The notes under the pieces are model-generated. The model was not told the DNA's origin and made no database searches. It saw only the letters and a list, made by a program, of their open reading frames with translations. Of a stretch of DNA of 64,000 nucleotides, positions 22,396-64,000 are shown piece after piece (position 1 is the stretch's first letter; every line of letters starts with the position of its first letter). Made by a program: the position numbers and the translations under genes. Origin of the DNA: Euphorbia lathyris (Eukaryota; Streptophyta; Magnoliopsida; Malpighiales; Euphorbiaceae); NCBI RefSeq assembly GCF_963576675.1, contig NC_088913.1, positions 27,235,001 through 27,299,000 of the forward strand, given 5' to 3'.

Positions 22396-22591
22396 ATAGG
22401 ACATGCGTCGGCTGCCGCTAGGCGCTCGAACCACGTCGCTGAGCACTCGCGAGCCGTCCACTTGACGACCGCGACTCACATTAACTTTTCTTTTCTTATT
22501 ATATATTTTTGTTTTAAAACTTCCGGAATCAACCGCTTCGACCGTCTTGTTTACAGGTTTTCGTCACAGGTCCTCTGACTCGGTGTCTACA

Positions 22592-23671: not shown

Positions 23672-23760
23672 TTCCTTATATAAGGTGGTGGGGTTTCATT
23701 CCAACCCCACACCTTCTCTCTCTTCTCTCTCTCTAACTTCTGATTTGGATTATTCTCGGG
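23672..23760 (+). promoter_or_regulatory. Promoter of the antisense PMD gene in D
   Basis: A plus-strand TATA box (CCTTATATAAGG) at about 23674-23685 is followed by a pyrimidine patch (CTTCTCTCTCTTCTCTCTC, near 23711) and then the ATG at 23761. This is a typical plant core promoter layout. J has the same arrangement (51287-51376). Confidence 0.6.
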
Positions 23761-28801: not shown

Positions 28802-28817
28802 CCCGTAGATGCACGCT

Positions 28818-29543: not shown

Positions 29544-31412
29544 TAGTATGTATGCATGATTTTATATGCATGATTCGTGGTGTGTGCGTTTATTTATTTA
29601 CGGATATATAAGATAAGAAGAACAAGCGTTAGTCTAATTACACGTATCACAACATCTCTCTTCCGCCCTTATTCCTCCACGCACTCGATGGTCCAGGGGA
29701 CGCGTGATGCCGACGATTTATTGCGGAAAAGTAAATCACTCATCAGACAATACAGTTCGTTTTGACGTATCAACGTTCAGTGACTAAGATATCGACCAAG
29801 CGGATTGTCCTTTTGGGATAACTCGTCTTTTGTCATTTTACGAGATGCATTAGTTCGGGTTTTGACTCCCTTTGAGTGCATCTCGGTTTTTAGACGTGGT
29901 ACGAGTTATTCTTTCAGTCCAATCATTCGTTATTGACAATGACTCGTTCCTTTTTATTCGCGTGGGTTTGTGTCTCGATTTTTGGATTACGACGGGATCT
30001 TTTGGATCTATCGAGAGACGTAACCACGTGTTCATTCAGTGATGAAAGCACTTTTTATTTTAAGGAACAGACTCATCGTGTAACGTGTTTGTTTTTAGCG
30101 TTAAGAATCCGTTTGCTCGTTTTGGCTACGTAAAAAGACGGCGAGTCTTATTTGAGCGCACGATAATCTTTCGGCTAATAACAACTCTTTATTCCTTCCA
30201 ATCTACGGGATATATCACCTTAGTGTGGTTATAGAAAATCAACGTTTTGTTGAATCGCATGTTTATTCGAAGCAGGGATATTACCGTTTTTTTCAGTTAG
30301 GCTCGAGTTTAAGCAAACATGCATATCGGGCCATATTTCTTGTAGTTTTGGTAACGGTCGAAATGATCGAGTCGTTAGTCAAACCCACAGTCTCGTCCAT
30401 ATGGCGCAATTATGTGGTTTAGCTTAACTCGGCTTTGTGATTTTAAACGGCATACCTACCGGCTCGAGACACGTATTTAACGGCATTGGTTTATTTTCTT
30501 TAACTACCCTCGGGATGGATATATATCGTAGATACAGAATGACTTTGGTCGTTTATTTCTGTTTTTCTTTTATTTTCTTAGTCACTTTTGCGGACACCTC
30601 CATTTCTCTCAAGAACGACACAAGGCATAACGTAAGAGCTCGTCTTTTATTCGGAAGGGACAGGCCACGTTTTGCGAAACTCTTTACGTTACAACAGGGT
30701 CATTCAAAACAGAAATGTTCTTTGTTTTCGTTTCGTCATAATCTCGTTTCATCCCAACCTATTTAAAGAGTGTGAATAACGGCTACTGTTAATATAGTCT
30801 TTTGAATCGAGATATAACTATCCATAATACCAAACCAATTCGTACTAATATGTGCTTACGTCACAACGTATTTCCTGAACATGTGCCTTCTTCGGGACAC
30901 GGAAAGGGACCAGGCGGGTCGCACAAGTTCATTCATACGAGATGACTAAGTCATCTTTAGTTCGAATCGTTTCGATGTTTTGGGGTAGTTTGTATATCGG
31001 TCTAAGAGTATATATTAACGTATCGTTTCATTTTCTTTACATATTTTAGGATTAGACACGTATCATGGCAATTTGAAAACACGAACGGATTCATTCATCA
31101 CATCAAAAATGGTAACGGGTAATCCTATGGCAACTTCTAAGGCTACTATATGCTGACACGGCTGATCGCGGGACCTCACAGGACTGCACAAATTCGCCCC
31201 TAACGAATGGATGGGGACCCTTTGGCACCTTACTGTAAGGGGGAATTTACACTAGCCTCTTTCGAGCGACGAATGGACTCTCGCTAGAGGTTTTGCGGAA
31301 ATTACCCAAAAGGTTTGCAATAATGCTTATGAATGCATACGAAAAGAAATAATACGATCCGTCCCCGTTAAGGGCTTAATACACGCCTTCCGGAATCAAA
31401 TTTCTCGCTTCA
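29544..31412 (-). other. Element D untranslated leader
   Basis: About 1.9 kb between PBS and gag with no conserved ORF. It is near-identical to the J leader (61195-63105), except that about 46 bp present in J near 61350-61397 are absent here. Open frames of 60-109 codons on the plus strand are not kept intact in J and are not supported. Confidence 0.6.
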
Positions 31413-31427
31413 CCAGCAGAGTCGCCA
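31413..31427 (-). other. Element D primer binding site (Arg tRNA type, mutated)
   Basis: TGGCGACTCTGCTGG on the minus strand, 2 bases from the LTR. J has the longer match TGGCGACTCCGCTGGGGA. This PBS is typical of Tat/Ogre gypsy elements and is usually assigned to tRNA-Arg. Confidence 0.75.
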
Positions 31428-31429
31428 CT

Positions 31430-43682: not shown

Positions 43683-46250
43683 ATGTCGGATTCTCAGAAT
43701 ATCTCCGGAGGCGGTTACGATAACAACCGCTCCGATGAAAATCCATCGTACCAAACTAAGTCTCAGAAAGAAGGTCAACATGACCATTCCAAGGTCACCA
43801 CACCAAGTAAGACTCCCCATGCTGACCAAGCTACATCTTCAAAGAAACAGAAGGACAAGGGGAAGAAACCAAAGGAGAGAACCTACTGGTTCTCGAAGGG
43901 GATATAAGGTTGACCACTCCCGCTGGTTCTCGAAGGGATTTGTTGAGGCTGAGCAACCCTTCTGTGAGTGGATCTCAAAGAACGGCTGGACTGAGCTGTT
44001 CTTGATTTGAGAAGCTACCTATCCAGAGCTGGTGAAGGAATTCTACGCCAATTTGCAAGCTGCTGATGATGACCGAGATTATATGGTCACCAAGGTTCAA
44101 GGAAAGGACATCTTTATCAACCCTCCTTACCTCGCCAAACTGCTCAAGTTGAAAACCGAAGGAGCTAAACTCAGAAAATCAGGTGACCACGATAAAATTG
44201 ACTATCCCACTGAGTTCTGCAAACCCGCCGGTCATGTAGGGGAAATCTCAAGTACTTCCATGGGTCAGAATCAAAAGATGGCCCATTATATCCTGACAAA
44301 CTTTCTTTTCCCCAAAATCAATTGCACCTCTTCAGCCACAAATTTCGAACAATGCTTTATCTGGCATATGCTGACCTACCAGCCGATCAACATGCCAGTT
44401 TTCTAATCGGTGGATTTCAACGAAGAACTGGAACCCTTAGGTTTGGCTCACTTATCACCAGAATCCTCAAAGACTACTAAGTGAGCTTGGTAGAGGAAAT
44501 TGAAGTCTGGGGAACTGAGATTACTGCTGCTGTATTATTCGGCTTGGTCTATGACCAACCTATTGTACCTAAGAAAGGTAAAGGGAACGCAGATAAGGAA
44601 TCTCAGGGCATGTTGACCAGAGAAGGCAAGAAAGTAAAGCAAGCTCACGCTGACAGAAAGAGGAAAGTTGTGCAAACCTCTTCCAAAGATGTCAATGTTG
44701 CCCCCAAGAAGCTGCGAATCATGTCAAGCCATAAGAAAGTGAATGCTGAGCAAGGTCAGGAGGAACCTAAGTCAGCAGAAAAACTCAAAAGGCCTGCTGA
44801 GCCTAAGGAAGAAAGTTCGGGGACTCTTGAGCAACCCCTGATGAAGAAGAAAAAGAAGTCTACTGAGCCCAAGCTAATTGATGCACTTCCTACTGATTTT
44901 ATCATATCTGACCACTCACATTTTATGAGGAGTCAAGGTATTGATCTCGAGAAACCACCCACTGACCAAGATGAAGAAGAGTTGGGTAATCTCGGAGGTC
45001 AGTTTGAAGCTGAGGAGACAACCGATGCTGAGCAACATGAGACAGTTCACGCTGATCAAGTCGGGGATACTGATCAGGCTAGGGAAGCTGAGCATGTAGA
45101 AGAAGCTGAGCAGCTTGAAAATGTTGAGGCAGATGATGCTGATCATTCCACTCCTCAAAAGAGCCGCAAAAGAAGAAGACTCAAGAAAAAGGCTCATAAA
45201 ACTCAAGCTATCGACCTTCTGAATGATTCTCCTTTAAAGGATCCTATTACTGACCTCACTGATCTACAGTTCAAGTTCTTTTCAAAGGACACTGAGTCTT
45301 CTCCAATGCAATGAAAGAAAAAGCAAGCCTCTGTTTCTCAACCTAAGGAACATGCCGACTCAACTGCTACTCATGGTCAAGTACATACCGAGCAAGTGCT
45401 CGAAGTTCCTGTTGCTAAGCTTCCTGAGATAGCAAAGGAAAAACCAGCTCAGGTCAGTTCTGGACCTCCTCCTCACACCAGTCAGCTTCAGCCTGACTCT
45501 AAGCAAGTAGATAACTCTGCCGATCAACCTCTTCCAAATCCTCAAGCGCGGAATATCAACCAGTCAGTTCTTGCTGGTAATCTGAACTCAAATCCGGCCG
45601 CTGATCATGCTGGCACTTCCAATAATGAGTGGAACCAAAAGCCTCCACCATCCGGTGCTAACCGTATTCCGGCATCTGGACCAAACATTGATGAATCCTA
45701 CTCTTACTTGCATGCCACTGAGTCTGGACAAAAAATCATCGACTCAGCTCAAGCCTTACTCAAAGACCTTCATCAATCCAATGTCGAAGCCGCTGGGTCT
45801 GTTTCTGTTGAGCAAACTCAACTTTCCTCTGTCACTCAGCTTCTCACAGAGATCAAAGGTCTTAAAGATCTTCTGAGTGTCATGACATCTCTCCAGTCTC
45901 AACAGCCTAAGCAGGAATCAATAACAAAGCTGGTTGAACTCCAGCTGACTATGGTAAATCACATGAACTCTCTCTAGGGTCAACTTCAAAACCTGTCAAC
46001 TGCGAACTCAATGTATGCAACCTCTACTGAGGTTCATCAACTCTTTACCCAGCTTCATTCTGAGCAAGCCAGAACCAACACACAACTCTCTTCCTCCTCT
46101 CAATGCTCCATTGAGCAAATTAGCGAGGTTGTTCGTCTACTCAACTTGAGTAAGGAAGAGATGGAAACTGATCAACTCAAGACAAATGAGCTTCTCCAAT
46201 ACTCCCAATCCATCTTCAAACATGTGCGTCACACGAATGCTCAACGTTAG
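43683..46250 (+). pseudogene. Element F: degenerate extra ORF downstream of pol, homologue of the C 838-aa ORF
   Basis: It aligns with 14640-12124 of C: PFCEWISKNGWTELF, KEFYANLQAADDDRDY, KDIFINPPYLAKLLKLKTEG and SATNFEQCFIWHMLTY, then a charged low-complexity region and a coiled-coil end (QLLTEIKGLKDLLSVMTS). It is broken by a frame change near 43900, stops at about 44011, 44406, 44480, 45314 and 45977, and smaller changes. It ends in CAACGTTAG at the position where C has CAACGATAG. Divergence from C is clear at the protein level but the domain order is the same. Confidence 0.85.
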
Positions 46251-46400
46251 TTTTATGATTCGGCTCTGCTTAAGATGTTTCATCAAGCTTACGCCATGCT
46301 GACTAATACTATCACCTGGGTTGGGAAGTCTCAAGAATATATTTTAAGTCTGTTGAGTGCCTCGATCAGGGTTCCCAGTTCTGTCTTGGATGATGGTGTT
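46251..46400 (+). pseudogene. Element F: conserved coding sequence beyond the amber codon, cut by I
   Basis: In frame with the preceding TAG it reads FYDSALLKMFHQAYAMLTNT, then ITWVGKSQ..LLSA..VPSSVLDDGV with no stop before I. It matches the extension of C (12123-11970) residue by residue in its key positions. Confidence 0.7.
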
Positions 46401-47446: not shown

Positions 47447-50282
47447 TGTTAGACGAGGTGCCGCGGCCTAATCTCCCGGGCGGACCGGGGGGTGGACACC
47501 TCATGGCGACGTAAGCGGTGATTGGCGCCGAAAGCAACCAATCGTGGAATCAAGCTGCTCGACAGGACCGGAGCTCGGAGTATGGAAGAGTCGCCACCCA
47601 CGAATGGGAAAATGAACACCGATCCCTTGCGGGAGACCGGTGAGGGTTCGGAAAACTTAGGTATGAGTCGAGAAGGCTAGCTCCTTTCCAGAGAAAGGCT
47701 ACAAGGCACCCCGACATCGCCCGGTTATGAACCACCGGCCTCCTACTCAGCGTGTTAGGCGATAACGGACTAATCGCATATTTCTTTAAGTTTAAAATTC
47801 ATTTGAAACCTTTTCTTTCTCGTTTTGAAAACTGTTTTGAGCATATATTATTGAAAGCCATTTTAGTAAAGAATCACCCATTTACATCAGTTCAAAATAC
47901 ATAGGAGAGAGAGGGGGGAGAAGAATTGATTTGTTTACAATGTGATTTATGCTTCGTATTGCACACTAACTCTAAACTAAACTCACTTCCCAAAAACGAG
48001 TTTATTTACATGGTTCGTACCTTAATCGCCGTTGGAACGATTTAGGTACGTTTCAAAACCCCGTTAATGACGTTCACTCGAATCGCCGTTGGAACGACTC
48101 GAGCGTTTGAAATGTTGAGATGAAAGCTTTTAACAAGAAAACGTGATTAAACATACAAGTCCATTTATTTTGTACAAAACCATTTAAGAAAACGATTCAA
48201 AACTTTATTATTTACAATAAAAACGATTTTAATTACAAGGTTCGCCTAATCCGTCGTTGGAGCGGATTAAGGTTTCAACACGTGATATTTTGGAAATAGT
48301 TTAAAAAGGTCAAGAAAACGTTATTTACACTTTAAGAATATCTAGAAAATTTAAGTTTAAATAAACAAATTAAAGTCTCTTTTTGTGATTTTATTTTCCC
48401 TTTTTCACTCAATCAACTCTTTATTCGCACATAATTACACCAATGAACCAATTAAACCAAAATTCACCAAGTAAAACTCATTTGGAATATATACATGTAT
48501 ACCAAAAATAAAATAGAAATACATATATATATATATGATTTTATCTAAAAATAAGGATATATTTATATATAAAAATAAGTGAGAAATACTATATGATATA
48601 ATAAAGAAAATGAAAAAGAATACAAAATATAATACATTTTCATCCTAACTAAAACTATGTAAAAGTAATGGAAGACCATAAATGCAAAAAATTGATATAA
48701 TAAGTATATAGAAAACCCCTCCCCAAACAATAGCTAAACCCCACATTTTGATAACCCAAAAAAATATATATATATATATATGTACAAATAGTGAATCAAA
48801 ACAAATTAAATTTCAAATATGGAGTAAATAACTACATAATTGATAATTAATAGTTATATGACCCCAAAAATAATTTTTATAATCATATTATATAATTACA
48901 TACTTATATATATAAGAATCAAATACCAAAAGGTGGAGAAAATGGGCTAAAAAGATGAATTTTCGTTTTCCAGCAGATTACCGACGGAAAATCCGTCGTC
49001 AATCTGCTATTAGTGACAGAAAAGGGAGAATTACAGCAGCAGTCCAAAACTTTCCAGATTCGTTCAAAAGCTTTAAATTAAGTCTAATTCGATCGTTTTG
49101 GATCTCCGAACTACCAAAAATGGATCATAGTCTATAACGGAATTTCCTAAAACGACGTTTTTATTTTCAAACGTTATTCGGAAATATCTTTTAAAACTTA
49201 TAATTACAACGTTTTTTAATACCCGAACTACCTTTTAATCGGATCACGGTTCATATTGGGATATCAAAACGAGGTTTTTTATTTTAAAACAAAATCGAAT
49301 TTTTATCTAACACGGGATAAAAATAAATAAATACGGGAAATTAAATAAAACGTGATAAATAAATAAATAACTAACTAAATAAAACTATAACATAAAAATA
49401 AATAAATAAAAGAAATAAATGAAATAAAATAAAACGAGTCTAGTCCTCGGATAATACCTCAAGTTCGGTATCTGACAGTCGAAGTTGGTTGATTCCACAA
49501 ATCGTGATTTTTCGGGTTTTTTTGTGTTTTTCGTCTTTTTTAGTAAAAATTTAACTTTTGGGAAATTCGGACTTTTTGAGAAAAAAAATATTTTTCTAAA
49601 AAAAAATCACTTTCTCTCTCTAAAAATGTCTAGAGTGAGAAAGTCTCCAAAAATCCCTCATTCTTAAATGTATGGGGATCCGTGCCTTATATAGGCAAAG
49701 CATCCCCGGAAACTTTGGGCGACGCCCGAAGAAAATTGGCCGTCGCCCAAAGCCGGTTGGGCGAACGCCCAACTTATGTTGGGCGAACGCCCAACTTTCG
49801 TTGGGCGAACGCCAAACATGGTTGGGCGAACGCCCAACTATCGTTGGGCGCGCGCCCAACTGACGTTGGGCGTTCGCCCAATGACCGTTGGGCGTCCGCC
49901 CAACGTCACTGGGCGGTCGCCCAGCGGCTGCCGGGCGCGCTCGCCCAGCGGCCATCGGGCGTGCGCCTCGCGCTGTCGGGCGCGCGTGCCCCACGGTCGT
50001 CGAGCCCACGCTCCGCACTGCCGGGCCTGTGCACCCGACGGACGTCGAGCGTGCGCCCCGCGCTACCGAGCGTGCGTCCAACTGTCGTCGGACACGCGTC
50101 GGCTGCCGCTAGGCGCTCGCACCACGTCACCGAGCACTCGCGAGCCGTCCACTTGACGACCGCGACTCACATTAACTTTTCTTTTCTTATTATATATTTT
50201 TGTTTTAAAACTTCCGGAATCAACCGCTTTGACCGTCTTGTTTACAGGTTTTCGTCACAGGTCCTCCGACTCGGTGTCTACA
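47447..50282 (-). repeat. Element J 3' LTR (Tat/Ogre-type gypsy)
   Basis: TGTTAGACGAGG..GGTGTCTACA, 2836 bp, the same family as the D LTRs and full length. The five bases before it, ACTAG, should be the left TSD; the right end of J is outside the window. A minus-strand TATA lies near 49685-49696. No gene; an open frame near 47550-47735 (minus) recurs in the D 5' LTR and at 63229, but only because the LTRs are copies. Confidence 0.92.
49711..50115. repeat. GGGCG..CGCCC palindrome array in the J LTR
   Basis: Same type as in D, intermediate in unit number, with some different spacer pairs (GGGCGCGCGCCC, GGGCGTTCGCCC). It lies directly upstream of the minus-strand TATA box. Confidence 0.9.
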
Positions 50283-50518
50283 GTTGCCCCTAGTTTCCTA
50301 TTTTGACAGTGATGTGTGTGTTTTGAAAACGTCTTTTTGCTAACACAACACATGCAATGTAAAACATATAAAAGTAAGAGACACGTAAAGAGTAGGAGGA
50401 AGAATACCTGACCTTTGCGCTGCGCGTTCCGGCGTCGTCCTCGATTCTTTCCGTCCTTGCCTTTGAATCGGCTGCCGGCGAATGTTCTTCTTACGGACCC
50501 TAGCCTAAGTCGACTGCG
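50283..50518. other. Element J: region between the 3' LTR and the tandem array, with likely polypurine tract
   Basis: The minus strand reads AGGAAACTAGGGGCAAC just before the LTR. Otherwise non-coding and near-identical to D. Confidence 0.5.
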
Positions 50519-50925
50519 GGTAAAAATGGCTCAAAAGCAACCTTGGTGCACGACCGCGAGTAAAATGGCTCAAAAGCGACCCCGGCTTACGACCGGGGGG
50601 AAATGGCTCAAAAGCAACCCTGGTCTACGACCGTGGGTAAAATGGCTCAAAAGCGACCTCGGTTCAGGACCGCGAGTAAAATGGCTCAAAAGCGACCCCG
50701 GTTCACGACCGGGGTAAAAGGGCTCAAAAGCAACCTTGGTCCACGACCGCGGGTAAAAATGGCTCACAAGTAACCCTGGTCCACGACCGCGGGTAAAATG
50801 GCTCAAAAGCGACCCCGGTCTACGACCGTGGGTAAAATGGCTCAAAAGCGACCCTAGTCTACGACTGTGGGTAAAATGGCTCAAAAGCAACCCTGGTCCA
50901 CGACCGCGGGCAAAACGGCTCAAAA
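50519..50925 (+). repeat. 38-39 bp tandem array upstream of the antisense gene in J
   Basis: About 11 units of the same type as in D (22830-23312), with the same alternation of CAACCCTGG and CGACCCCGG units but about two units fewer. Confidence 0.9.
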
Positions 50926-51286
50926 GCAAAGGTTCTTTCTAACAATTCTGAATTCTTTTAAAACACCATTGTCTGTATTTTCTCACTGGAGCTAGTGTCT
51001 TGGAGGTTTGAATGGTTCGATGGGAACATCTTTTTAGTACGGAATGATTCAAGCTAATAATTATTTTTCTGTTGACTGTCGTCTGTATTTTGACTGGTGC
51101 CGCTGTTCTGTAAAAATTGGCTATCATCTAGAGTTCTATCTCGACATTATTGGTCATTGTCTGGCAGAAGCGCAGGCTGAAACGGACTGCAAATCGGAGG
51201 TCTGTGCACCTGGTAAATAATTATTTACTTTTTACCTTTATGTCACATCGTACCTTCTTCACTATTTACGGGAATGTCATTCCCTT

Positions 51287-51376
51287 TCCTTATATAAGGT
51301 GGTGGGGTTTCATTCCAACCCCACACCTTCTCTCTTTTCTCTCTCTCTCTAACTTCTGATTTGGATTATTCTCGGG
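51287..51376 (+). promoter_or_regulatory. Promoter of the antisense PMD gene in J
   Basis: TATA box (CCTTATATAAGG, about 51288-51299), pyrimidine patch and ATG at 51377. Sequence and spacing are nearly the same as in D. Confidence 0.6.
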
Positions 51377-54300
51377 ATGGATTTGGATCAACATGATGGC
51401 ACGAAGGGCATGGAGGAGGGTTTCGTGAACCTTACTACAGTGGACCCTTTTCAGGACCCCACATCTCATCTGAGCCGGACCCGCTGTAACCAGGTAAGTA
51501 CTTTCTTACTTCCTCGTCTTTTAACTAAATTTCTAGGCTTTAGTATCCCTACTTTGAACATGATTTGCATGCTAATCCCTAGGTTGCCTTAGAAGATCTT
51601 AGTTAGAAAACATGAATTTCTTTGCTTACAAGTAACACTTTATTTGTCTTTTTGGAAGAATGCGAATTATATGCATGTGAATAGTAAACATACGAGCAAT
51701 GCATGCCAACAGTAAAAAATATGAATAGTGAAAACGTGAATAGTGCACGTGAATAGTAAAAACGTGAAGAGTGCACGTGAATAGCAAAAACGTGGATAGC
51801 GCACGTGAATAGTAAAAACGTGAATAGTGCACGTGAATAGTAAAAACATGAATAATAAAAACGTGAATAGTAAAAACGTGAATAGTGCACGTGAATAGTA
51901 AAAACATGAATAATGCACGTGAATAGTAAAACTCGAATAATGCACGTGAATAGTGAAAACTTGACTAATTCACGTGAATAGTGAAAACTTGACTAATGCA
52001 CGTGAATAGTAAAAACTTGAATAATTCTCTTTGCCAATGGGGATGAGAGTAGATCAAAGAATAATGAATTAACCAAATCCTATGCAAACAACCCTAAGGG
52101 AGAGATTTCACAAAATGACAGTCCAAATTGACAAGATGTCTCTAGGTTAGATTTGACCGTAAGAATAGCTAGATTAACGTGCTTTCATCAGATGCAAGCC
52201 TAGGAACAACATTTAAACTTACCTGTTCCGTTCTTTCCAGTTCATCGACATTTCCGGGACTACAGCAGATATTCATGTGTGGTATTCCATGCTAGGAGCT
52301 GCGGCGAGAGCCCGTGTGCGAGAGTTGGGCTTTGAGCCCTTTATTTTAGCACTGCCCCGCGCCAATGGGGTGTGCGACCGTTTCGGCCTACGGGTCTTAT
52401 GCGAGAGATGGGTTGACTCGACCCACACCTTCCACCTCTCGTTCGGGGAGATGACGATCTCGCCCCGTGACTTCTCTTTATTGACCGGGCTGCGGGGGAG
52501 TGGTACTCCGGTTCCCTTCTCCTTTGATACGATTCGTCCATGGGTTGACCGTGCTAGGTTGGCTGCTTTGATCGGGCCGGGAGTTTACACGGGTGTCAAA
52601 TCCACCCGGGCGAAGTTCATCACTACCTCGAGGCTTTTGAGTCGTAGGGACTTTTGTGGGACCGACGACACTGATCTGGCTGTCCGCAGCTTCCTGGTGT
52701 ATGCTTTAGGCGAGACGATCTTCCGCACCAAGAGCGGGACGATACATGCGGGTCTCATTCAGGCCTTCAGTGATTTGGATGCGGTGGCGTCTTACGATTG
52801 GGCAGGAGCGGGTCTAGCTTACTTGTACAAGTTTTTGGATCTGACTTGCCGGAAGCGCAAGGACTTCGGCGGCTACACTTTTGCTCTTCTGGTACGTGGT
52901 TCATCCTTAACTTGCCCCTTTTATCTTCTTCGCGCCTTCTGTTCATAACCTTTGTTTTTACAAGCAGGTTTGGGCCTACGAGAGGCGGATTCTTCCCAGC
53001 GAGCGTCGACGCAGGCCACAGGTAGTGAAGCCCCCACTTATGGCTCGGTGGAGCGAGTTCGGTCTAGGTACCAGGGAGAGGCAGACGGTGGCGCAGCTCC
53101 TAGATTGGATTGATTCACGGACCTTGGGGCAGGTAAATATCTTCTAATCGCGCTAGATTTTTGTTTGATCAGACATGACTTTTTCTTTGTGCTTTCAGGT
53201 TAGATTCAGGTGGGACGACCTTGACTTCGGTCCCGATTACGCGTACGTCACCCTGATCCAGGAGCAGCAGAGCGTGCTTACAGGCCCTTGCGTGCGGGCA
53301 TGGTACTTGGGCGACCGGGGCATCACCGGGGTTAGTGCCTCGCATTGGACACCAGGCGAGATCCCCGTCTCCATGTTTGCGGTGCGGACTATGTCCTTAT
53401 CGGTCATTCGTCGGGATTTGACTCGCCGCTTTGCTGGTAGAGATGTATGGGTTCATGCCGGGGGCTGTGTTCCCTATTTATCGACATCATTGAGCGCGAG
53501 GGATGCCCCAGCGGTGGCAATGGAGGTGGACCCCGTGGCGGACGTGTTTTCGGGGGAGGCTGTCGCTACAGTCTTTGGTCAGGAGGCGGTTCCGGTGAGT
53601 GGTTCGGCCTATTTATTTTTATTTACGAGATGGTCAGGGGTGTTTATTGTGTCTCTACTTGCAGGAGGGTTCCTGGAGGAGTGCCCACACGTCAGACTTC
53701 TTCGATAGTGCCCGAGCTCAGACGTCTGCGAGCGAGCCGCCCTATTATGTCGGCGAGTCCTCCGGCGCCGCCCGACCGGAGAGGTCCCCTTTGGGCGTAC
53801 CCATCCCTGACTTTGGGAGGGATTTCACGACAGTTTGCTATGACCAGTCCGGAGTGGCTTATGCCTATCGAGATGGCCCCTCCTGCCTTTACGTCGAGGA
53901 TACCGTTTGATCCCTCAGACGCTCTCCAGACTTCGAGGGAGACGTGCACCGACTATGTGGGGCTATCTGGTTTCTTTAGAGATCGACTCAGCTTGCGTTG
54001 CTCCAGCCACCTGGTATGTATCTTTATTTTATTTTAGTGTAGTGGAATGTATGCACATGTGTATGTATGACTTCTATTCTAGTCTGTATTTCTTTTTTAT
54101 ATCTGTTTTTTCTTCTTTTTTTTTTACAGAGCGATCTCCGTGCACATGAGCTGAGATAGAGCGAAGCGCTGCGGGAGGCCGATGCCAGGGTTGGCCAGGT
54201 GTATCGGGAGAGGAACGACCATTGGTTCGGGGTGATGCGGGCGGAGACCACGGGACGCCTTGCTGTTGAGGAGAGGGTGCAGAAGGAGACCGCGGGTCAC

Positions 54301-54405
54301 CTTGCTGCCGAGGAGAGACTTCGAGTCGCCGAGGAGACCCTATTCGCGGAGCGGGCGTCACATCTGAGGGACTTTGAGGCCCACTGGGATTTCCCTCCTT
54401 ATTAG
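51377..54405 (+). pseudogene. Antisense six-exon plant mobile domain (PMD) gene carried by element J
   Basis: Exons: 51377-51493, 52241-52891, 52968-53132, 53199-53594, 53665-54013 and 54130-54405. Lengths are identical to D (117, 651, 165, 396, 276) except exon 5, which is 349 against 351. That 2-base loss near 53870 shifts the frame. Exon 6 also has a TAG near 54157 where D has CAG. The D lesions are absent here. PMD motifs as in D: WVDSTHTFHLSFGEMTI, FLVYALGETIF, WAGAGLAYLYKFLDLTC and VWAYERRILP, then a C-terminal coiled coil (AEERLRVAEETLFAERAS). Because the gene is antisense to the element RNA, its introns survive retrotransposition. The original may be a captured host gene or an old part of this lineage. 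Confidence 0.8.
51672..52022 (+). repeat. Intron 1 repeat array with CACGTG boxes (J)
   Basis: Irregular GTGAATAGTAAAAACGTG repeats, with GCACGTGAATAG recurring about nine times. It is the counterpart of 24085-24400 in D but differs in unit order and number. Confidence 0.85.
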
Positions 54406-54858: not shown

Positions 54859-57102
54859 TTACGAAAAGTATTTCTTAAGCCTATCCAGATTGGTAGGTTC
54901 GGAGAACTCCATGCCGTCCATAGTAGTTAACTTCACCGCTCCTTTGCTTAGTATCTTCTTCACGAAGAATGGCCCTTCCCAGTTTGGCCTAAACTTGCCC
55001 CTCGGGTCGGTGTGTGTCACACGGATCTGTTTTAGCACCATATCCCCTTCTTTGATAGGGCTGGCCTTGACCTTTTTGTTGAAGGCTCGGGCCATCCTTC
55101 GCTGATATAACTGCACATGGTAAAGGGCCTCCATCCTTTTCTCGTCCACCAATGCTAACTGTTCATACCGCTTCTTCACCCATTCCGTCTCGGGAATCTC
55201 TGCTTCTACTGCGATTCTCAACGATCGCTTTTCAATCTCAATCGGCAGGACCGCTTCTGCCCCATACACTAAGGAGAACGGTGTTGCCCCGGTTGACGTT
55301 CTAACTGTCGTGCGATAAGCCCATAAAGCGAGCGGGAGCTGTTCGTGCCAGTTCCGATGCGATTCTACTGTCTTTACGAGAATCCTTTTAAAGTTCTTAT
55401 TAGCCGCTTCTACTGCGCCATTAGCCTGTGGACGATACGGAGAAGACCTATGATGTTCAATACCGTACTCTTGGAATAGACTTTTCACTTCTCCTTGAAA
55501 CTGGACCCCATTATCCGTGATCATATGATGAGGCACTCCGAACCTGGTGATCAAGTGCTTTTCAATGAACTTCCTCATCTGTTTAGACCCCAACTTGCTA
55601 AATGATTCTGCCTCCACCCACTTGGTGAAATAATCGATAGCGACTGCAATGAATTTGTGCCCGTTCGAAGCATTAGGCCTCACCTCTCCGATAATATCAA
55701 TGCCCCAAGCCGCAAACGGCCAAATGGGCGCTAATACGTGCAGTTCCATAGCTGGTAGATGATTATAATCTCCGTAGACTTGACAATCATGGCATTTCTT
55801 CGCATATTCGTTACAATCTCTTTCCATGGTGAGCCAATAGAAGCCTTGCCTTATGATTTTCTTTGCCAATACCGCCCCTCCCATATGGGCTCCACAAATT
55901 CCTGAGTGTACTAACTCCATTGCCTCGCGGGCTTCTCCCGCATCCAAGCACCTCAGTTGTAACCCATCGGTGTGCCTTTTGTAAAGCAAGTCATTGTGGA
56001 TGACGAACTGCTGAGCTAACCTTCTAATCACAGCTTGATCCCTAAGTTCTGATTCTGCCGGGTATGTTCCACTCTTCATGAAGTTTACGATATCGAAATA
56101 CCAAGGTTTTTCATCTGCCCCCAACAGCATTACATCTTCGTAGCATGGTTTGTGAGACCTTCTCAACACCAAAGGCTTCGAGGCAAGGTTCCGAGGATTA
56201 TCCCATACTGATACCAAAGTGGCCAAAGCATCCGCTGCCTGGTTCTGTGCTCGAGGAATGTGATAAAAACGACATTCGCTGAATTTCTGCGCCAACCCTT
56301 CTAGCTGGTCTAGGTATGGACGTAACATTTCTTCCCTCACTTCCCAGTTTTCCTGTGCTTGTTCGATAATCAGTTTTGAGTCGCCCCAGATTTCAACGTA
56401 TGATGCTCCCAGTCCTGCTAATGACTCCAACCCGTAGATGCACGCTTCATATTCGGCCATATTATTGGTGAGAGGGAAGGATAGCTTCTTTGCCATTGGG
56501 ATCCTTTCTCCTTCTGGTGAGATAAGTAGCACCCCTACTCCGGCTCCATTCGAATTAACTGCTCCATCGAAGAACATTTTCCATGGTATGACTTCTATTG
56601 CGTTCAAGTGCTCATCGGGGAAATCATAGTTTATCTCCTCCTCTTCTGCGCTCAGAGGCTGATTGGCTAAAAATTCTGCCACGGCTCTCCCTTTAATAAC
56701 TTTCTTCGTCATATACTCGATGTCGAACTCTGATAACAACAACAACAATCGGGCCAGCTTTCCAGTTAAGGATGGAGTTCGGTACAGATACTTCACAGGA
56801 TCCATCCGAGAAATAATGATCACTTTGTAAGATTGAAAATAGTGTCGTAGTTTCTTTGTTAACCATACTACCGCCACACACGTCTTTTCAATCATGTTAT
56901 ATTTAAGCTCGTACTCCAGGAACTTCTTACTCAGATAATACACTGCGTGTTCCACACCAGTGTCCCCTTCTTGGGCCAGCATTGCCCCAATAGATCGCTC
57001 TTCGATTGCTACATAGAGGAGGAGCGGTTTTCCAAGTTTAGGCGGTCTTAGAACAGGCGGATTAGACAAGTATCCCGGATCTTCTCTAAGGCTTGCCGAC
57101 AC
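54859..57102 (-). CDS. pol: Element J: RNase H, additional RNase H and integrase
   Basis: An intact 747-codon frame. About residues 25-125: first RNase H (KPLLLYVAIEERSIGAML, YYLSKKFLEYELKYNMIEK), whose first catalytic Asp is replaced, as is common in the Tat lineage. About 175-310: additional RNase H with D (FFDGAVNSNGAG), E (NMAEYEA), D (WGDSKLI) and D (AADALA). About 385-end: integrase with HHCC finger (HSGICGAHMGG, CHDCQVYGD), D (WGIDIIGEV), D (MITDNGV), E (NGAVEAANKN) and a C-terminal tail. An additional RNase H between RNase H and integrase, with the Arg-type PBS, assigns J to the Tat/Ogre group. The natural polyprotein continues upstream, but frame changes separate it from RT. Confidence 0.92.
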   Translation of the reverse strand: MSASLREDPGYLSNPPVLRPPKLGKPLLLYVAIEERSIGAMLAQEGDTGVEHAVYYLSKKFLEYELKYNMIEKTCVAVVWLTKKLRHYFQSYKVIIISRMDPVKYLYRTPSLTGKLARLLLLLSEFDIEYMTKKVIKGRAVAEFLANQPLSAEEEEINYDFPDEHLNAIEVIPWKMFFDGAVNSNGAGVGVLLISPEGERIPMAKKLSFPLTNNMAEYEACIYGLESLAGLGASYVEIWGDSKLIIEQAQENWEVREEMLRPYLDQLEGLAQKFSECRFYHIPRAQNQAADALATLVSVWDNPRNLASKPLVLRRSHKPCYEDVMLLGADEKPWYFDIVNFMKSGTYPAESELRDQAVIRRLAQQFVIHNDLLYKRHTDGLQLRCLDAGEAREAMELVHSGICGAHMGGAVLAKKIIRQGFYWLTMERDCNEYAKKCHDCQVYGDYNHLPAMELHVLAPIWPFAAWGIDIIGEVRPNASNGHKFIAVAIDYFTKWVEAESFSKLGSKQMRKFIEKHLITRFGVPHHMITDNGVQFQGEVKSLFQEYGIEHHRSSPYRPQANGAVEAANKNFKRILVKTVESHRNWHEQLPLALWAYRTTVRTSTGATPFSLVYGAEAVLPIEIEKRSLRIAVEAEIPETEWVKKRYEQLALVDEKRMEALYHVQLYQRRMARAFNKKVKASPIKEGDMVLKQIRVTHTDPRGKFRPNWEGPFFVKKILSKGAVKLTTMDGMEFSEPTNLDRLKKYFS

Positions 57103-57897
57103 TTATCATTCCAAATCGTGGGTTGATCTTTCCGTAGCAACTTAAAAATCGGCTCGCAGATTGCAGTGAGTCTTGCTATGAACCGACTGATATACTGAAC
57201 CTGCCCCAGAAACCCCCTCACTTCTTTCTCATTCTTTGGCGCCGGCATTTCTTGTATGGCCTTCACTTTGTCGGGATCTACCTCAATTCCCCTGTTTCTG
57301 ATTATATAGCCTAAGATTTTTCCCGAAGAAGCACTTTTTCGGGTTTAACCTTAGTTTGAATTCTGCAATTCGGGCCAAAAACTTCTCGAGTGCAGCGAAA
57401 TGCCCCTCTCTTGTCTCCGACTTGACCATCATGTCATCCACATAAACCTCTACCTCTTTGTGTATCATGTCATGGAATAGTGCCGTAGCCATTCGCTGGT
57501 AAGTTGCCCCGGCATTTTTCAAACCAAACGGCATCACCCTAGAGCAGTATGTTCCCCACTCAGTTGTGAACGAGGTTTTCGCTTTGTGCTTCTCAGCCAT
57601 CTGAACTTGCATGTAGCCCATGAAACCCGTCCACATTCGTGTGTAAGACGCTCGATGTTGCACTGTCGATCAACACGTCAATATGAGGCAACGCGAATTC
57701 ATCTTTGGGGCACGCCTTGTTAAGATCTCTATAATCAACGCACATTCTCACTTTGCCATCCTTCTTTGCGATGGGCACTACATTTGCGACCCAAGGGGGA
57801 TAGTCGATTACTTCGATGAACCCTGCTTCTAACTACTTCTTCACTTCTTCTCTGATCTTATCTGCCGATTCCGGTCTCATGCGTCGGAGTTTCTGTT
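57048..57897 (-). pseudogene. pol: Element J reverse transcriptase, frameshifted
   Basis: RT pieces in changing frames: 57778-57593 (PIAKKDGKVRMCVDYRDLNK), 57663-57283 (TSFTTEWGTYCSRVMPFGLK, VEVYVDDMMVKS with the YVDD active site) and 57266-57048 (MPAPKNEKEVRGFLG). The stretch 57897-57779 carries the region just before RT (KLRRMRPESADK) with a TAG near 57830. At least three indels and one stop fall in 850 bp, while the flanking gag and integrase frames are intact over 5.5 kb. Confidence 0.85.
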
Positions 57898-60800
57898 TCA
57901 TGGGTATGTTGGAATACAGTGAGTTACGATTGATTGATCAATTCCTGGCATGTCTTCGTATGTCCAAGCAAACACTATTTTGTATTTTTTAATTATTCTC
58001 TCAAATTCTTTCCTCTCTTCAATAGTTAATTCTTGAGCAATTTGTATAAGTTTAGGATTTTCATCCGTACCAAGATTGAAAGTTGACATTTCTATTGTAT
58101 TGATTTCAAATGTAGGCATGTTATATGAATGAGAATGCATGGAATGATCACGATCAACATCAAGCAAGTAAGCAAAATCAGAATTCATTTCATTGATAGT
58201 GTTGGCGAGTACATCATCGGATTCAAATAAGGCAGTAATACAATTTTCATCGTCAGGGTTCTCGGGTTTCTCATAGGCTTTAGAGGTACCGGGTTCATCC
58301 ACCGCTCCCACAGTTGCTTCAATAGTGATCACCTGCTCCTCGGCATTCAAATCTAACATCATGATCTCCTCGACAAAGCAGCTTGCCTTTCCTTTGCCCC
58401 AGTCGGTAACATCATTGAAGATCTCAAAGCCCGGCAGAATCTTTCCTTCGGCGCTAACAGCCACTTCCGACTCATCATTAGACTCATCCCAGATGTTGAT
58501 CGGAACCCTCTGATTGATACCTTCCTCGTCGGAGGAACTTCCCCAAATGTCCACGACCATCAAATCCATTATGTGAGGGACATTCGGATTTATGTAGGAA
58601 GGGTCCGACGATCCATACCGAGCCCAGCCTATTAGTTCTTCATAGTCTTTGAGGAACACTCCATTCATTCTTCTAGCCACGAGTGGAATAGCACCCTTCC
58701 GGATGCACATGAGTTGCTCCTGATCACTCAAGGTGACCCGACACAAGGCATACTTGAACCTCCATCTTCTAGCATAATCCACGAATGCTTCCTCGGGAAA
58801 TTGCTTGATCCTTTCTAAATCTTCCAACGACCCAGTCCACGGGATGTACATCTCATATCTCTGCACGAAAGCCTCCATGAAGGACCCCCAGTCCCCTTTT
58901 GCCTTTGCCGAGAGCATTCGGTGCCACATCAAAGCTTCTCCTACGAGTGTCTTTGGAAAGTGCTGAACCAACTCACTTCGATAGAGTCCTGTGTCAAACA
59001 TGTAGGCACGGAAACAGTTTATGTGGTCGATGGGGTTCTCACCTCCTTTGTACTTAGCCATGGTTAACACCGCCTCAGGTGTCTCCTCATCGGGTGACTC
59101 AGGCATTTCCTCTGGATGTCCCCATGCGGTGTATTTCTTGATGAACCTCTTAGTCATTTCTGCCCAATTCACTTTTACGTACATCGGAAGAGACATGTAC
59201 CATACCAGTGACTCTCCTGCCAATGAGTTGCAAAACAAGCTCGTAATCTCCTCCTCTTTGAAACCTAGAGGACCCATAGCCGATAGATAAAAATGCAAGT
59301 GCTCCATGGGGTCCTTCCCTTCATTATACTTGCTGACAGTCGGAAACGGACGTTTGATAGGCCCAATTTGCATCGCGCTGTATTCCCCTGCCTGTGTTTT
59401 GTCTCTTCGATACTTCATCAAAAACAAGCTTGACATCAGTGACCAATCATGCTTAGTCGAGTCAGGTAGCGATTGAAACCACTTCAAAGGTTCGCCCACC
59501 AGCGAAAGATAGAACCATGGAGTGACTTTTTCCACTTTGCATGGCTCCCCAAACATAGCACACACGTATCCATACAAATGAGCTTCGGGGTCTTCTACCC
59601 CACTAAACAATTTCAACACAGGCATGATCCTCCGAGATGATACCTCCTCGGTTTCCTCTGTTTTAGTCCTATCATCCAACACTTCTTCCGTTGGCTCTTC
59701 CTCCAAAACAGACACGTATAAACCATTTCCCACATTCCTTTTCTCATCGGAGTCCAACAACTCCTCTTCGCTTGCCCTGAAGGATCCCATCACTAAACTC
59801 TCTTCGAGCCCCGGCCCGATCATGCTCACCTTATGATTAGGCAATGGATTACGCCTAGTGGAGGGGTTCGCCGACGAAGGATCAGCTATCTTCTTCTCCT
59901 CAATCAAATCCTGAATCTCGTGTTTCAGTCTCTCGCAGTTCTCAATAGTGTGCCCATAACTGCTGTGGAATTCGCAGTATCCCCTAGTTTGTATCTGCGG
60001 AGAAGGTGGAGCTTTGTTATAAGGAGTAAGAGCTTTCAGCAACCCCTTTTTCTGCAATCGTTCGAAAACTTTTGTGTAGGTCTGATCAAATTTGGCGAAC
60101 TGCCTCTTTTCGATAGCATTAAGATCAAGCACTTTCACTGCTGCAGATTCTGCACTCGCGCTTGGCCCTCCGACACTATATCCAGACTTCGTCCACTTGG
60201 TATACGCCTTTTTCGGTTCTCCATCCCCCTCAACTATCAAGGTGCAGCTATACATTTGGTTGAAATCGGTAAAAGGCATGTACCGCAGCTCATTCTTAAT
60301 ATACGGGAATGTGTTACCGACTACCATTCGGATCTGATCCTGCTCAAGAGGCTTCTGTTTCATAACCGTGGCCTTGGCCCTCCATCTTCTTACAAAATCG
60401 GAAAAAGATTCCCCAGTCTGCTGCTTAGTGCTCTCAAGCTCCTTCAAAGTGACCACAAGCATAGTGTTGAAGCTATACTGAGCGATGAATGACTTCGCTA
60501 ACTCTTTCCAATCCCTCTTCGTCACCATTGGCAATGCATGAAACCATGTGAGGGTAGCCCCCTCCAGATAAGTGTTAAACAGCCCCAGGACTTGATCCTT
60601 AGTCAGGATCGTGTGTTTCATCACAGCAACATACTGATTCATGTGGGCAGTGGGATCTCCAGTTCCATCGAACTTTTTCATGTCAGGGAGCCGGAATTTC
60701 AAAGGCAAAGCAGTTGCCGATAAACAATTCTTCAAGTTATAAAAGTCCTGACTCCCAGAACTTCCTCCACATAGATCCTGCACTTCCTGAGTGATGTGCT

Positions 60801-61194
60801 GCTTCCACTCCTCTTCCTTAGCCTTCTCTTTCTCAAGCTGTTTCTGGATATAATCCTGATAGTCATCCTCGTTACCAAAGCGGGGACCGGTGTTCACTTC
60901 ATTCTCAGCGCGCTTACTGCCACTCTTGTTATCCTTCAATGCCAACTTCGCTAGCTGGGCCAAAATTGCGGCCAACTGATCATTGATATTGTTCACAGAG
61001 TTTTCCAATTCGGCCACTTTTTCGTCGGTCGTAGAGATACAGACTGAGGACTGAGTATACTCGGACGAAGATGATTTGGAAGCCACAACTGTCGATTCAG
61101 AATTGTCAATCTGTAGCTGATCAAACTGCCTGACCAACCGGTTACTCTCGCGAAACCACAACCGCTTAATGATGAAGTCTGCGCGAACGGTCAT
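57898..61194 (-). CDS. gag: Element J: 1098-aa gag ORF with three extra gag-like modules
   Basis: Intact frame. Residues 55-90: Leu-rich coiled coil. 165-305: retrotransposon gag domain (KKFDGTGDPTAHMNQYVAVM, YLEGATLTWFHALP, SFSDFVRRWRAK). 407-420: CEFHSSYGHTIENC, a zinc-knuckle-like CX2HX4HX4C. Then three more gag-like blocks: 524-597 (LFSGVEDPEAHLYGYV, SLVGEPLKWFQSLP), 617-688 (KYNEGKDPMEHLHFYL, SLAGESLVWYMSLP) and 709-818 (KYKGGENPIDHINCFRAYM, TLVGEALMWHRML, FVDYARRWRFKYALC). 1055-1098: the segment that normally precedes RT (ELTIEERKEFERI, VFAWTYEDMPGID). No D-T/S-G or DNGSS-type protease motif is seen between gag and RT. The ATG at 61194 matches the D start. Confidence 0.82.
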   Translation of the reverse strand: MTVRADFIIKRLWFRESNRLVRQFDQLQIDNSESTVVASKSSSSEYTQSSVCISTTDEKVAELENSVNNINDQLAAILAQLAKLALKDNKSGSKRAENEVNTGPRFGNEDDYQDYIQKQLEKEKAKEEEWKQHITQEVQDLCGGSSGSQDFYNLKNCLSATALPLKFRLPDMKKFDGTGDPTAHMNQYVAVMKHTILTKDQVLGLFNTYLEGATLTWFHALPMVTKRDWKELAKSFIAQYSFNTMLVVTLKELESTKQQTGESFSDFVRRWRAKATVMKQKPLEQDQIRMVVGNTFPYIKNELRYMPFTDFNQMYSCTLIVEGDGEPKKAYTKWTKSGYSVGGPSASAESAAVKVLDLNAIEKRQFAKFDQTYTKVFERLQKKGLLKALTPYNKAPPSPQIQTRGYCEFHSSYGHTIENCERLKHEIQDLIEEKKIADPSSANPSTRRNPLPNHKVSMIGPGLEESLVMGSFRASEEELLDSDEKRNVGNGLYVSVLEEEPTEEVLDDRTKTEETEEVSSRRIMPVLKLFSGVEDPEAHLYGYVCAMFGEPCKVEKVTPWFYLSLVGEPLKWFQSLPDSTKHDWSLMSSLFLMKYRRDKTQAGEYSAMQIGPIKRPFPTVSKYNEGKDPMEHLHFYLSAMGPLGFKEEEITSLFCNSLAGESLVWYMSLPMYVKVNWAEMTKRFIKKYTAWGHPEEMPESPDEETPEAVLTMAKYKGGENPIDHINCFRAYMFDTGLYRSELVQHFPKTLVGEALMWHRMLSAKAKGDWGSFMEAFVQRYEMYIPWTGSLEDLERIKQFPEEAFVDYARRWRFKYALCRVTLSDQEQLMCIRKGAIPLVARRMNGVFLKDYEELIGWARYGSSDPSYINPNVPHIMDLMVVDIWGSSSDEEGINQRVPINIWDESNDESEVAVSAEGKILPGFEIFNDVTDWGKGKASCFVEEIMMLDLNAEEQVITIEATVGAVDEPGTSKAYEKPENPDDENCITALFESDDVLANTINEMNSDFAYLLDVDRDHSMHSHSYNMPTFEINTIEMSTFNLGTDENPKLIQIAQELTIEERKEFERIIKKYKIVFAWTYEDMPGIDQSIVTHCIPTYP

Positions 61195-63105
61195 CCATTA
61201 GTATGTATGCATGATTTTATATGCATGATTCGTGGTGTGTGCGTTTATTTATTTACGGATATATAAGATAAGAAGAACAAACGTTAGTCTAATTTACATG
61301 TATCACAACATCTCTCTTCCACCCTTATTCCTCCACACACTCGATGGTCCAAGTCTCTTTCCTAGGATTTTGGTTTGGGGCTCACATTGCGGTCCAGGGG
61401 ACGCATGACGCCGATGATTATTGCGGAAAAGTAAATCATCCATCAGACAACACAGTTCGTTTTAACGTATCAGCGTTCAGTGACTAAGATATCGACCAAG
61501 TTGGATTGTCTTTTCGGAATAACTCATCTTCTGTTATTTCGCGAGACGCATTCGTTCGGGTTTTGATTCCCTTTTGAGCGTATCTCGGATTTAGATGCGG
61601 TACGAGTTATTCTTCTGGTTCAATCGTTCGTTATTGACAATGACTCGTTCCCTCTTATTCGCGTGGGTTCGTGTCTCGATTTTTGGATTACGACGGGATC
61701 TTTTGGATCTATCGAGAGACGTAACCACGCGTTCATTCAGTGATGAAAGAACTTTTATTTTAAGGAATGGACTCATCGCGTAACGTGTTTGTTTTTAGCG
61801 TTAAGAATCCGTTTGCTCGTTTTGGCTACGTAAAAAGACGGCGAGTCTTATTTGAGCGCACGGTAATCTTTCGGCTAACAACAACTCTTTATTCCTTCCA
61901 ATCTACGGGATATATCACCTTAGCGTGGTTATAGAAAATCAACGTTTCGTTGAATCGCATGCTTATTCGAAGCAGGGATATTACCGTTCTTTTTCATTTA
62001 GGCACGAGTTTAAGCAAACGTGCATATCGGGCCATATTTCTTGTAGTTTTGGTAACGGTCGAAATGATCGAGTAGTTAGTCAAACCCACAGTCTCGTCCA
62101 TATGGCGCAATTATGTGGTTTAGCTTAATTCGGCTTTGTGATTTTAAACGGCATACATACCGGCTCGAGACACGTATTCAACGGTATTGGTTCATTTTCT
62201 TTAACTACCCTTGGGATGGGTATACATCGTAGATACAGAATGACTTTGGTCGTTTATTTCTGTTTTTCTTTTTCTTAGTCACTTTTGCGGACACGTCCAT
62301 TTCTCTTAAGAACAACACAAGGCGTAACGTAAGAGCTCGTCTTTTATTCGGAAGGGACGGGCCACGTTTATGAACCTCTTTACGTTACAACGGGGTCGTT
62401 CGAAACAGAAATGTTCTTTGTTTTCGTTTTGTCATAATCTCGTTTTATCCCAACCTATTTAAAGAATGTGAATAACGGCTACCGTTAATATAGTCTTTTG
62501 AATCGAGATATAACTATCCTCAATACCAAACCGATTCATACTAATACGTGCTTACGTCATAACGCATTTCCTGAACAGGTGCCTTCTTCGGGACATGGAA
62601 AGGGACCAGGCGGGTCGCACAAGTTCATTCATACGAGATGACTAAGTCGTCTTTAGTTCGAATCGTTTCGATGTTTTGGGGTAGTTTGTATATCGGTTTA
62701 AGAGTATATATTAACGTATCGTTTCATTTTCTTTACATATTTTAGGATTAGACACGTATCATGGCAATTTGAAAACACGAACTGATTCATTTATCACATT
62801 AAAAATAGTAACGGGTAATCCTATGGCAACTTCTAAGGCTACTATATGCTGACAAGGCTGATCGCGGGACCTCACAGGACCGCACAAATTCGCCCCTAAC
62901 GAATGGATAGGGACCCTTTGGCGCCTTATTGTAAGGGGGAACTTACACTAGCCTCTTTCGAGCGACGAATGGACTCTCGCTAGAGGTTTCGTGGAAATTA
63001 CCCAAAAGGTTTGCAATAATGCTTATGAATGCATACGAAAAGAAATAATACCATCCGTCCCCGTTAAAGGCTTAATACACGCCTTCCGGAATCAAATTTC
63101 TCGCT
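61195..63105 (-). other. Element J untranslated leader
   Basis: About 1.9 kb between PBS and gag, near-identical to 29544-31412 in D. No conserved ORF. Confidence 0.6.
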
Positions 63106-63123
63106 TCCCCAGCGGAGTCGCCA
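63106..63123 (-). other. Element J primer binding site (Arg tRNA type)
   Basis: TGGCGACTCCGCTGGGGA on the minus strand, 2 bases from the LTR. The PBS of the Tat/Ogre group, usually assigned to tRNA-Arg. Confidence 0.8.
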
Positions 63124-63125
63124 CT

Positions 63126-64000
63126 TGTTAGACGAGGTGCCGCGACCTAATCTCCCGGGCGGACCGGGGGGTGGACACCTCATGGCGACGTAAGCGGTGA
63201 TGGGCGCCGAAAGCAACCAATCGTGGAATCAAGCTGCTCGGTAGGACCGGAGCTCGGAGTATGGAAGAGTCGCCACCCACGAATGGGAAAATGAACACCG
63301 ATCCCTTGCGGGAGACCGGCGAGGGTTCGGGAAACTTAGGTACGAGCCGAGAAGGCTAGCTCCTTTCCGGAGAAAGGCTACTAGGCATCCCGACATCGCC
63401 CGGTTATGAACCACCGGCCTCCTACTCAGCGTGTTAGGCGATAACGGACTAATCGCATATTTCTTTAAGTTTAAAATTCATTTGAAACCTTTTCTTTCTC
63501 GTTTTGAAAACCGTTTTGAGCATATATTATTGAAAGCCATTTTGGTAAAGAATCACCCATTTACATCAGTTCAAAATACATAGGAGAGAGAGGGGGGAGA
63601 AGAATTGATTTGTTTACAATGTGATTTATGCTTCGTATTACACACTAACTCTAAACTAAACTCACTTCCCAAAAACGAGTTTATTTACATGGTTCATACC
63701 TTAATCGCCGTTGGAACGATTTAGGTACGTTTCAAAACCCCGTTAATGACGTTCACTCGAATCGCCGTTGGAACGACTCGAGCGTTTGAAATGTTGAGAT
63801 AAAAGCTTTTAACAAGAAAACGTGATTAAACATACAAGTCCATTTATTTTGTACAAAACCATTTAAGAAAACGATTCAAAACTTTATTATTTACAATAAA
63901 AACGATTTTAACTACAAGGTTCGCCTAATCCGTCGTTGGAGCGGATTAAGGTTTCAACACGTGATATTTTGGAAATAGTTTAAAAAGGTCAAGAAAACGT
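63126..64000 (-). repeat. Element J 5' LTR, partial at the window edge
   Basis: It begins TGTTAGACGAGG and is nearly identical to 47447 onwards over the visible 875 bp. Few differences from the 3' LTR suggest a fairly recent insertion. Its U3 and palindrome array lie outside the window. Confidence 0.92.

Follow-up and report, generated by a model that had tools for sequence, protein, structure and literature searches.

Two LTR retrotransposons carry a six-exon antisense gene

The window, a stretch of 64,000 nucleotides of Euphorbia lathyris DNA, contains two LTR retrotransposons, here called D and J, each of which carries a gene for a plant mobile domain (PMD) protein (Table 1). The gene was initially annotated as a six-exon unit on the strand opposite to gag-pol, between integrase and the 3' LTR, and the exon map, the domain search and the LTR positions confirm this placement in both copies. 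All five introns start with GT and end with AG in D as well as in J, and the exons are richer in GC (0.53-0.62) than the introns (0.25-0.42). All five introns of D are in phase 0 and J is alike, except that its last intron comes after the frame has already been lost in exon 5; the earlier description of five phase-0 GT-AG introns is upheld, with this qualification for J. Exon lengths are equal in the two copies, as had been noted, apart from the 2-base loss in exon 5 (351 nucleotides in D and 349 in J).

Exons 1-4 are open in both copies. Past exon 4 both are broken, D by in-frame stops, one in exon 5 and another in exon 6, and J because exon 5 loses the frame and exon 6 contains a stop, a feature that the initial annotation had omitted. 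Therefore, the full protein is encoded by neither copy. In either copy the longest stop-to-stop frame of the gene has 243 codons. Chance open reading frames or a mis-drawn exon map were ruled out by the match to the Pfam family PF10536 and by the junctions common to annotated relatives.

Table 1. Positions of the features of elements J and D in the window
Feature	Position	Strand	Remarks
Element J	47447 to beyond window end	gag-pol on -	LTR retrotransposon
J 3' LTR (left)	47447-50282	-	
J 39-bp tandem array	50511-50929	+	10.7 copies, between 3' LTR and gene
J leader-like stretch	51137-51212	+	matches leader of annotated relative P0011 (P0001 by reading); GT directly after
J TATA-like box	51291-51296	+	
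J PMD gene	51377-54405	+	six exons
J exon 1	51377-51493	+	start ATG at 51377; 0/117 differences from D
J intron 1	51494-52240	+	contains 28-bp tandem array
J 28-bp tandem array	51722-52025	+	10.8 copies
J exon 2	52241-52891	+	bulk of PMD
J exon 3	52968-53132	+	
J exon 4	53199-53594	+	
J exon 5	53665-54013	+	linker
J exon 6	54130-54405	+	long helix in model of relative P0001; one in-frame stop
J pol 3' part	54859-57102	-	RNase H, additional RNase H (RVT_3), H2C2, integrase (rve)
J reverse transcriptase part	57283-57669	-	
J ORF with gag domain	57898-61197	-	
J primer-binding-site-like stretch	63107-63123	-	starts TGG, two bases inside 5' LTR
J 5' LTR (right)	63126-64000	-	truncated by window end; 17/875 differences from left LTR
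Element D	20127-34162	gag-pol on -	LTR retrotransposon
D 3' LTR (left)	20127-22591	-	lacks 415 bases found in D right LTR (404 against J left LTR)
D 39-bp tandem array	22820-23315	+	12.7 copies, upstream of gene
D PMD gene	23761-26775	+	six exons; exons 5 and 6 each interrupted by an in-frame stop
D exons 1-3	23761-23877, 24615-25265, 25342-25506	+	
D 28-bp tandem array (intron 1)	24103-24399	+	10.5 copies
D exons 4-6	25573-25968, 26039-26389, 26500-26775	+	
D pol remnant	27230-28843	-	part of additional RNase H, and integrase
D 5' LTR (right)	31430-34162	-	

Classification and state of the elements

The 3' part of the J pol holds two RNase H domains (RT_RNaseH at 24-126 and RVT_3 at 178-295) in the order RNase H, RVT_3, H2C2 and rve, that is, with the additional RNase H between RNase H and integrase, which is the criterion of Ogre and Retand within Tat (PMC6317226). 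By this order of its predicted domains J is placed in the Tat lineage of Ty3/gypsy elements. Within Tat, Ogre is the most likely assignment because the extra gene of D and J carries a PMD rather than Transposase_28, a trait which is frequent in Ogre and not strict. The Tat/Ogre type proposed in the initial annotation is therefore upheld, with Ogre as the most likely clade. Two further traits of the Ogre clade were compared. The clade has a primer-binding site for tRNA-Arg; in D and J a stretch starting with TGG, two bases inside the 5' LTR, is a candidate primer-binding site. For the spliced intron that the clade has between gag-PROT and RT-INT, the observation in J is a gap of 228 bases (57670-57897) separating the two minus-strand frames.

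Element D is without the stretch that matches J 56457-60484, inside which the reverse transcriptase lies, while its PMD gene and both LTRs are retained. The two LTRs of D differ at 52 of 1641 positions in the longest aligned stretch and are 96.7% identical over a further 361 bases and 90.6% identical over 489 bases that include a repeat array. A target site duplication was not found for D, whose flanking bases differ, and a single clean insertion is therefore not demonstrated for this element. D and J diverge unevenly along their length, for instance by 19.3% at J 60485-60784 and by 2.7% at J 61085-61384, so that they are mosaics or belong to different subfamilies. The LTRs also contain palindrome-like tandem arrays (TTGGGCG...CGCCCAA) with units of about 22 bp, at 49744-49923, 21976-22385 and 33682-33847.

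Elsewhere in the window, at 12124-14658 on the minus strand, a frame of 844 amino acids matches Transposase_32 (PF20167, E 9.6e-13). It has a diverged inverted relative at 43951-46287 on the plus strand (71% alike over 521 bases and 68% over 583), and a copia RVT_2 adjoins the first frame just as an inverted copy of it adjoins the second, so that the frame looks like a further extra gene carried by a retrotransposon.

The encoded protein

PF10536, the PMD family, is the only Pfam family detected in exons 1-4. Its scores of 100.7 bits in J (E 1.3e-28) and 96.2 bits in D (E 2.9e-27) are well above the curated cut-off of 34.9 bits, and the PMD identity proposed earlier is thereby established. The match spans positions 23-242 of the 347-position profile in J and 20-242 in D.

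The C-terminal part was read from an AlphaFold model of the annotated relative P0001, made with 46 aligned sequences (mean pLDDT 57.7). In the model a core at about residues 81-300 is moderately confident, most of 343-578 is of low confidence, and a helical end at 579-698 consists of helices at 579-660 and 664-698. The linker between the PMD and the C-terminal helix is probably disordered, judging from the model. The exon 6 part counts 112 residues in P0001 and 91 in D, a difference that, by reading, amounts to three heptads and would be what a coiled coil tolerates. In a simple heptad count on the helix, however, no stretch of 28 residues has more than 5 of its 8 a/d positions hydrophobic, and a coiled coil is therefore not proven. 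Of the coiled-coil end described initially, the long C-terminal helix stands in the P0001 model, whereas its coiled-coil nature does not follow from the heptad count. We know of no long C-terminal helix in the MAIN/MAIL proteins, the related host proteins.

Searches for relatives of solved structure gave no convincing match. By sequence, the one match to exons 1-4 of J had an E of 0.26 and was put down to chance; a profile search gave none at E up to 1; and among the 25 PDB matches listed in the fold search none reached E up to 0.001, so that no fold match points to the function of the PMD. The P0001 model matched an unnamed predicted viral protein of 805 residues (BFVD A0A890CAY5) with a Foldseek E of 5.9e-4, a probability of 0.98 and a TM score of 0.17.

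Annotated relatives in Euphorbia lathyris

Homology searches covered 5.8 billion proteins, with about 8000 candidates scored each time. Among these scored candidates 10 relatives were found in the first search and 51 in the second, and a third, based on a broader alignment, contributed P0052 (an E. lathyris fragment) and P0053 (Paspalum), both with E up to 1e-20. Eleven of the 51 are close, being 67-81% identical to J, and all of these are NCBI-annotated proteins of E. lathyris; the remaining 40 come from outside this species and are 23-35% identical, and P0053 is 45% identical over 7% of the query. A tree of 46 proteins (47 were entered after six of the 53 found had been omitted, and P0006 fell out) contains neither D nor J nor an anchor of a known PMD clade, and in it six E. 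lathyris proteins group together, apart from the rest (support 1.0).

P0001, with 704 amino acids, is open through all six exons. Conservation of the exon junctions was tallied by eye for 10 annotated proteins aligned to D, counting only proteins whose residues fit on either side of the junction and omitting P0008, an isoform of the P0007 locus, and the fragment P0052. Junctions 1 to 5 are kept in 2/3, 6/7, 8/9, 10/10 and 7/7 proteins, respectively. The exceptions are P0007, which passes from exon 1 to exon 3, P0011, with 15 extra residues at junction 2, and P0005, which departs at junction 3; P0001 is four residues short just before junction 3.

In four of the relatives the PMD exons are fused to foreign gag or copia sequence, and part of the annotation is therefore chimeric. 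P0007, P0008 and P0011 start with gag sequence, while P0010 switches from copia RVT_2 sequence to the PMD gene precisely where exon 4 begins. These models look as if retrotransposon exons get trapped into neighbouring transcripts. The isoform labels X1, X2, X6 and X7 occur among the relatives, and such labels in NCBI's pipeline usually mean transcript support.

Promoter region, leader and repeat arrays

The initial annotation had taken an own TATA box and an upstream array as signs of independent transcription. Both are present. TATATA lies 84 bases ahead of the ATG in D and 86 in J and is followed by a CT-rich stretch, and each copy has a 39-bp tandem array upstream of the gene. Two relatives, however, are annotated with a leader from further upstream. 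The leader of P0011 maps to J from 51137 and that of P0001 to D from 23560; by reading, the P0001 leader ends at J 51212, where a GT follows, and thus short of the TATA box. The annotated P0001 protein does not include the TATA-bearing stretch, the upstream leader being joined to the gene start in P0001 and P0011. Some annotated transcripts of the relatives therefore start further upstream, and the TATA box may not be the sole start. Independent transcription of the antisense gene is only suggested by these features.

Intron 1 of both copies contains a 28-bp tandem array with repeated CACGTG, the core of the G-box. This hexamer occurs 23 times in the window against 6.6 expected by chance, with nine copies in the J array and six in the D array, and the array might serve as an enhancer inside the intron.

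Selection between D and J

Between D and J, dN/dS is 0.32 in exons 1-4 (bootstrap 0.18-0.61) and 0.11 in the C-terminal part of pol. Since most changes between the two copies are transitions, the null expectation was built, in four settings, on the substitution rates that noncoding DNA shows in each C/G context. Against this null, 25 of 50 changes in exons 1-4 are nonsynonymous where 66-69% are expected (P 0.0033 to 0.016 over the four settings), and in pol the count is 18 or 19 of 59 (P 1e-9 to 7e-9). Exon 6 alone gives no significant constraint (10/18 nonsynonymous, P 0.23). Differences are about as frequent in the exons (79/1954, 4.04%) as in the introns (41/1058, 3.88%), and the amino-acid differences do not avoid family-invariant columns, falling on 10 of 177 invariant and 12 of 172 variable ones. 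Selection between D and J is therefore weak and mixed, the context-corrected test speaking for it and the column test against it. In our reading much of the difference arose after insertion, without selection. The intact relative argues that the gene is kept in the family.

Proposed role of the antisense gene and alternatives

On balance, and with modest conviction, we lean towards the view that D and J belong to a Tat-lineage family, most likely Ogre, with a complete antisense accessory gene whose PMD protein is used for the benefit of the element. Such a gene would consist of its own promoter region, a 5' leader, six exons, five introns and a 3' region. An LTR element copies itself through RNA, and sense introns are lost when that RNA is spliced. 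The introns of a gene on the opposite strand would go unrecognised on the element's RNA; those of the PMD gene could not be spliced out of the genomic RNA and would be copied unchanged via reverse transcription, so that antisense placement would preserve a split gene. After splicing, the transcript of the opposite strand would give an mRNA encoding some 650 residues, a protein with a PMD, a probably disordered linker and a long C-terminal helix. Intact members of the family would probably produce this protein, and in the nucleus it might act on chromatin or silencing complexes, as the related host proteins MAIN and MAIL1 do, to the advantage of the element. The proposed function draws on this kinship, and by analogy a counter-silencing role is plausible.

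The gene could instead be a passenger or relic that the family no longer needs, with ordinary decay in D and J and with annotated relatives that are merely survivors of gene prediction. The stops and the frame loss in both copies, the divergence of exons to the level of introns and the indifference of amino-acid changes to conserved columns all fit such decay. Yet the nonsynonymous share lies below the neutral expectation, and junctions and frame are kept across about 20% protein divergence, with the 704-residue relative open over all six exons. Other genes of the two copies are damaged too, D being without its reverse transcriptase region and J having its pol split over separate frames, so that the broken PMD gene says only that the copies are old. 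We regard simple decay as somewhat unlikely. If the family of D and J alone had lately acquired a MAIN-type gene from its host, the gene-like anatomy with introns would be accounted for, but we give this hardly any credence: proteins from outside E. lathyris are too distant (including the short Paspalum match), the six E. lathyris proteins of the tree, to which D and J were not added, stand as a clade of their own, and PMD clades of Gypsy elements are spread over angiosperms (PMC5418596). With some 8000 candidates scored per search, a host gene could have been missed.

It is also conceivable that the antisense RNA matters and the protein does not, the RNA pairing with genomic RNA, feeding small RNAs and limiting copy number. 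Antisense transcription and siRNA have been proposed for such genes (PMC7264820), and 175 phasiRNA loci have been reported at PMD genes of tea (PMC10673657). This would leave unexplained the conserved frame, the introns at codon boundaries and the PMD motifs of the relatives, and we consider it very unlikely. Another function, compatible with the explanation that we favour, would be to help the integration complex enter the nucleus or choose its target, a role that has been proposed for accessory proteins which retrotransposons encode in antisense (PMC7264820); the long C-terminal helix of the model could contact element proteins. Neither sequence comparison (Pfam and solved structures) nor fold comparison gave a sign of DNA or integrase binding, however, and this function appears unlikely.

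Returning to an accessory gene that serves the element, the rule that an intron-bearing passenger gene must sit antisense to survive the RNA intermediate is one that we infer from the anatomy and from general knowledge. The rule is simple and can be tested across plant genomes at large; if it holds, surveys relying on long single ORFs should undercount such genes. The full exon map provides exact junctions for RNA data and a protein to test. In its boldest form, which we hold to be rather unlikely, the idea says that antisense orientation lets a retrotransposon carry an entire DNA-style gene, promoter, introns and 3' end included, unseen by the splicing of its own RNA, that split antisense genes form a broad and under-counted class, and that the PMD protein here would be a decoy or partner disabling silencing by MAIN/MAIL1-PP7L.

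Comparison with known systems

Arabidopsis MAIN, MAIL1, MAIL2 and MAIL3 have the PMD in common with the gene of D and J. They are host genes (PMD-C), with MAIN and MAIL1 standing alone and MAIL3 fused to a phosphatase, in contrast to the element-borne gene described here (PMC7156037, PMC5418596). The same sources bear out the earlier remark that MAIN/MAIL1-type host proteins work in silencing, MAIN and MAIL1 acting there and with PP7L. Close kinship of the D/J gene to MAIN/MAIL was not found in the homology searches, among about 8000 candidates scored in each. Anti-silencing use of a captured PMD has already been suggested for MULE elements, and the origin and role of the Gypsy-encoded PMD relative to host silencing proteins are given as an open question (PMC5418596).

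That extra and antisense ORFs occur in such elements and that the PMD is tied to transposable elements, as stated in the initial annotation, is borne out by PMC6317226, PMC5418596 and PMC7264820. Neumann et al. (2019, PMC6317226) reported the PMD in 57% of Ogre elements, which share with the present elements the Tat lineage, the position of the additional RNase H ahead of integrase and after RNase H, and a PMD in an extra ORF. The survey worked with single ORFs of 250 codons or more, whereas the gene of D and J is spread over six exons with a longest frame of 243 codons, so that a split gene of this kind would have been passed over; the available part of the survey does not state the orientation of the PMD ORF, which is antisense in D and J. 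PMD-A1 and A2 were described in 2017 as exclusively Gypsy-encoded PMD clades, and here as there the PMD lies inside Gypsy retrotransposons, widespread in angiosperms; exon structure is not described in the portion of that paper covered (PMC5418596). The PMD is also reported as the most frequent atypical domain common to several species in plant Gypsy elements (PMC9289625).

Maize Grande, like D and J, has an antisense accessory gene between pol and the 3' LTR with its own promoter, and its product is nuclear (via PMC7264820). The antisense extra ORFs of that review are without clear similarity to other proteins; in its available text the PMD is not named among the antisense examples and six-exon splicing is unmentioned, unlike in the gene of D and J. 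The antisense TRP28 ORFs of Retand encode a different domain (PF04195), and introns are unmentioned in the main text as far as it was available (Vicient 2025, PMC11963269). A 2025 review (PMC12786077) names Ogre and EVADE as notable exceptions among the LTR elements of plants in that they have introns; their introns yield subgenomic RNAs of the element's own transcript, whereas those of D and J sit in the antisense gene. In the literature covered, which leaves key older papers outside, no description of a spliced multi-exon antisense PMD gene was found, and we do not claim its absence. PMD genes in Ogre and other Gypsy elements, and antisense accessory genes with their own promoter, are thus of a kind already known; what D and J add is the complete exon map, the proposal that antisense placement would preserve introns, and the undercount that surveys with a 250-codon threshold would entail.
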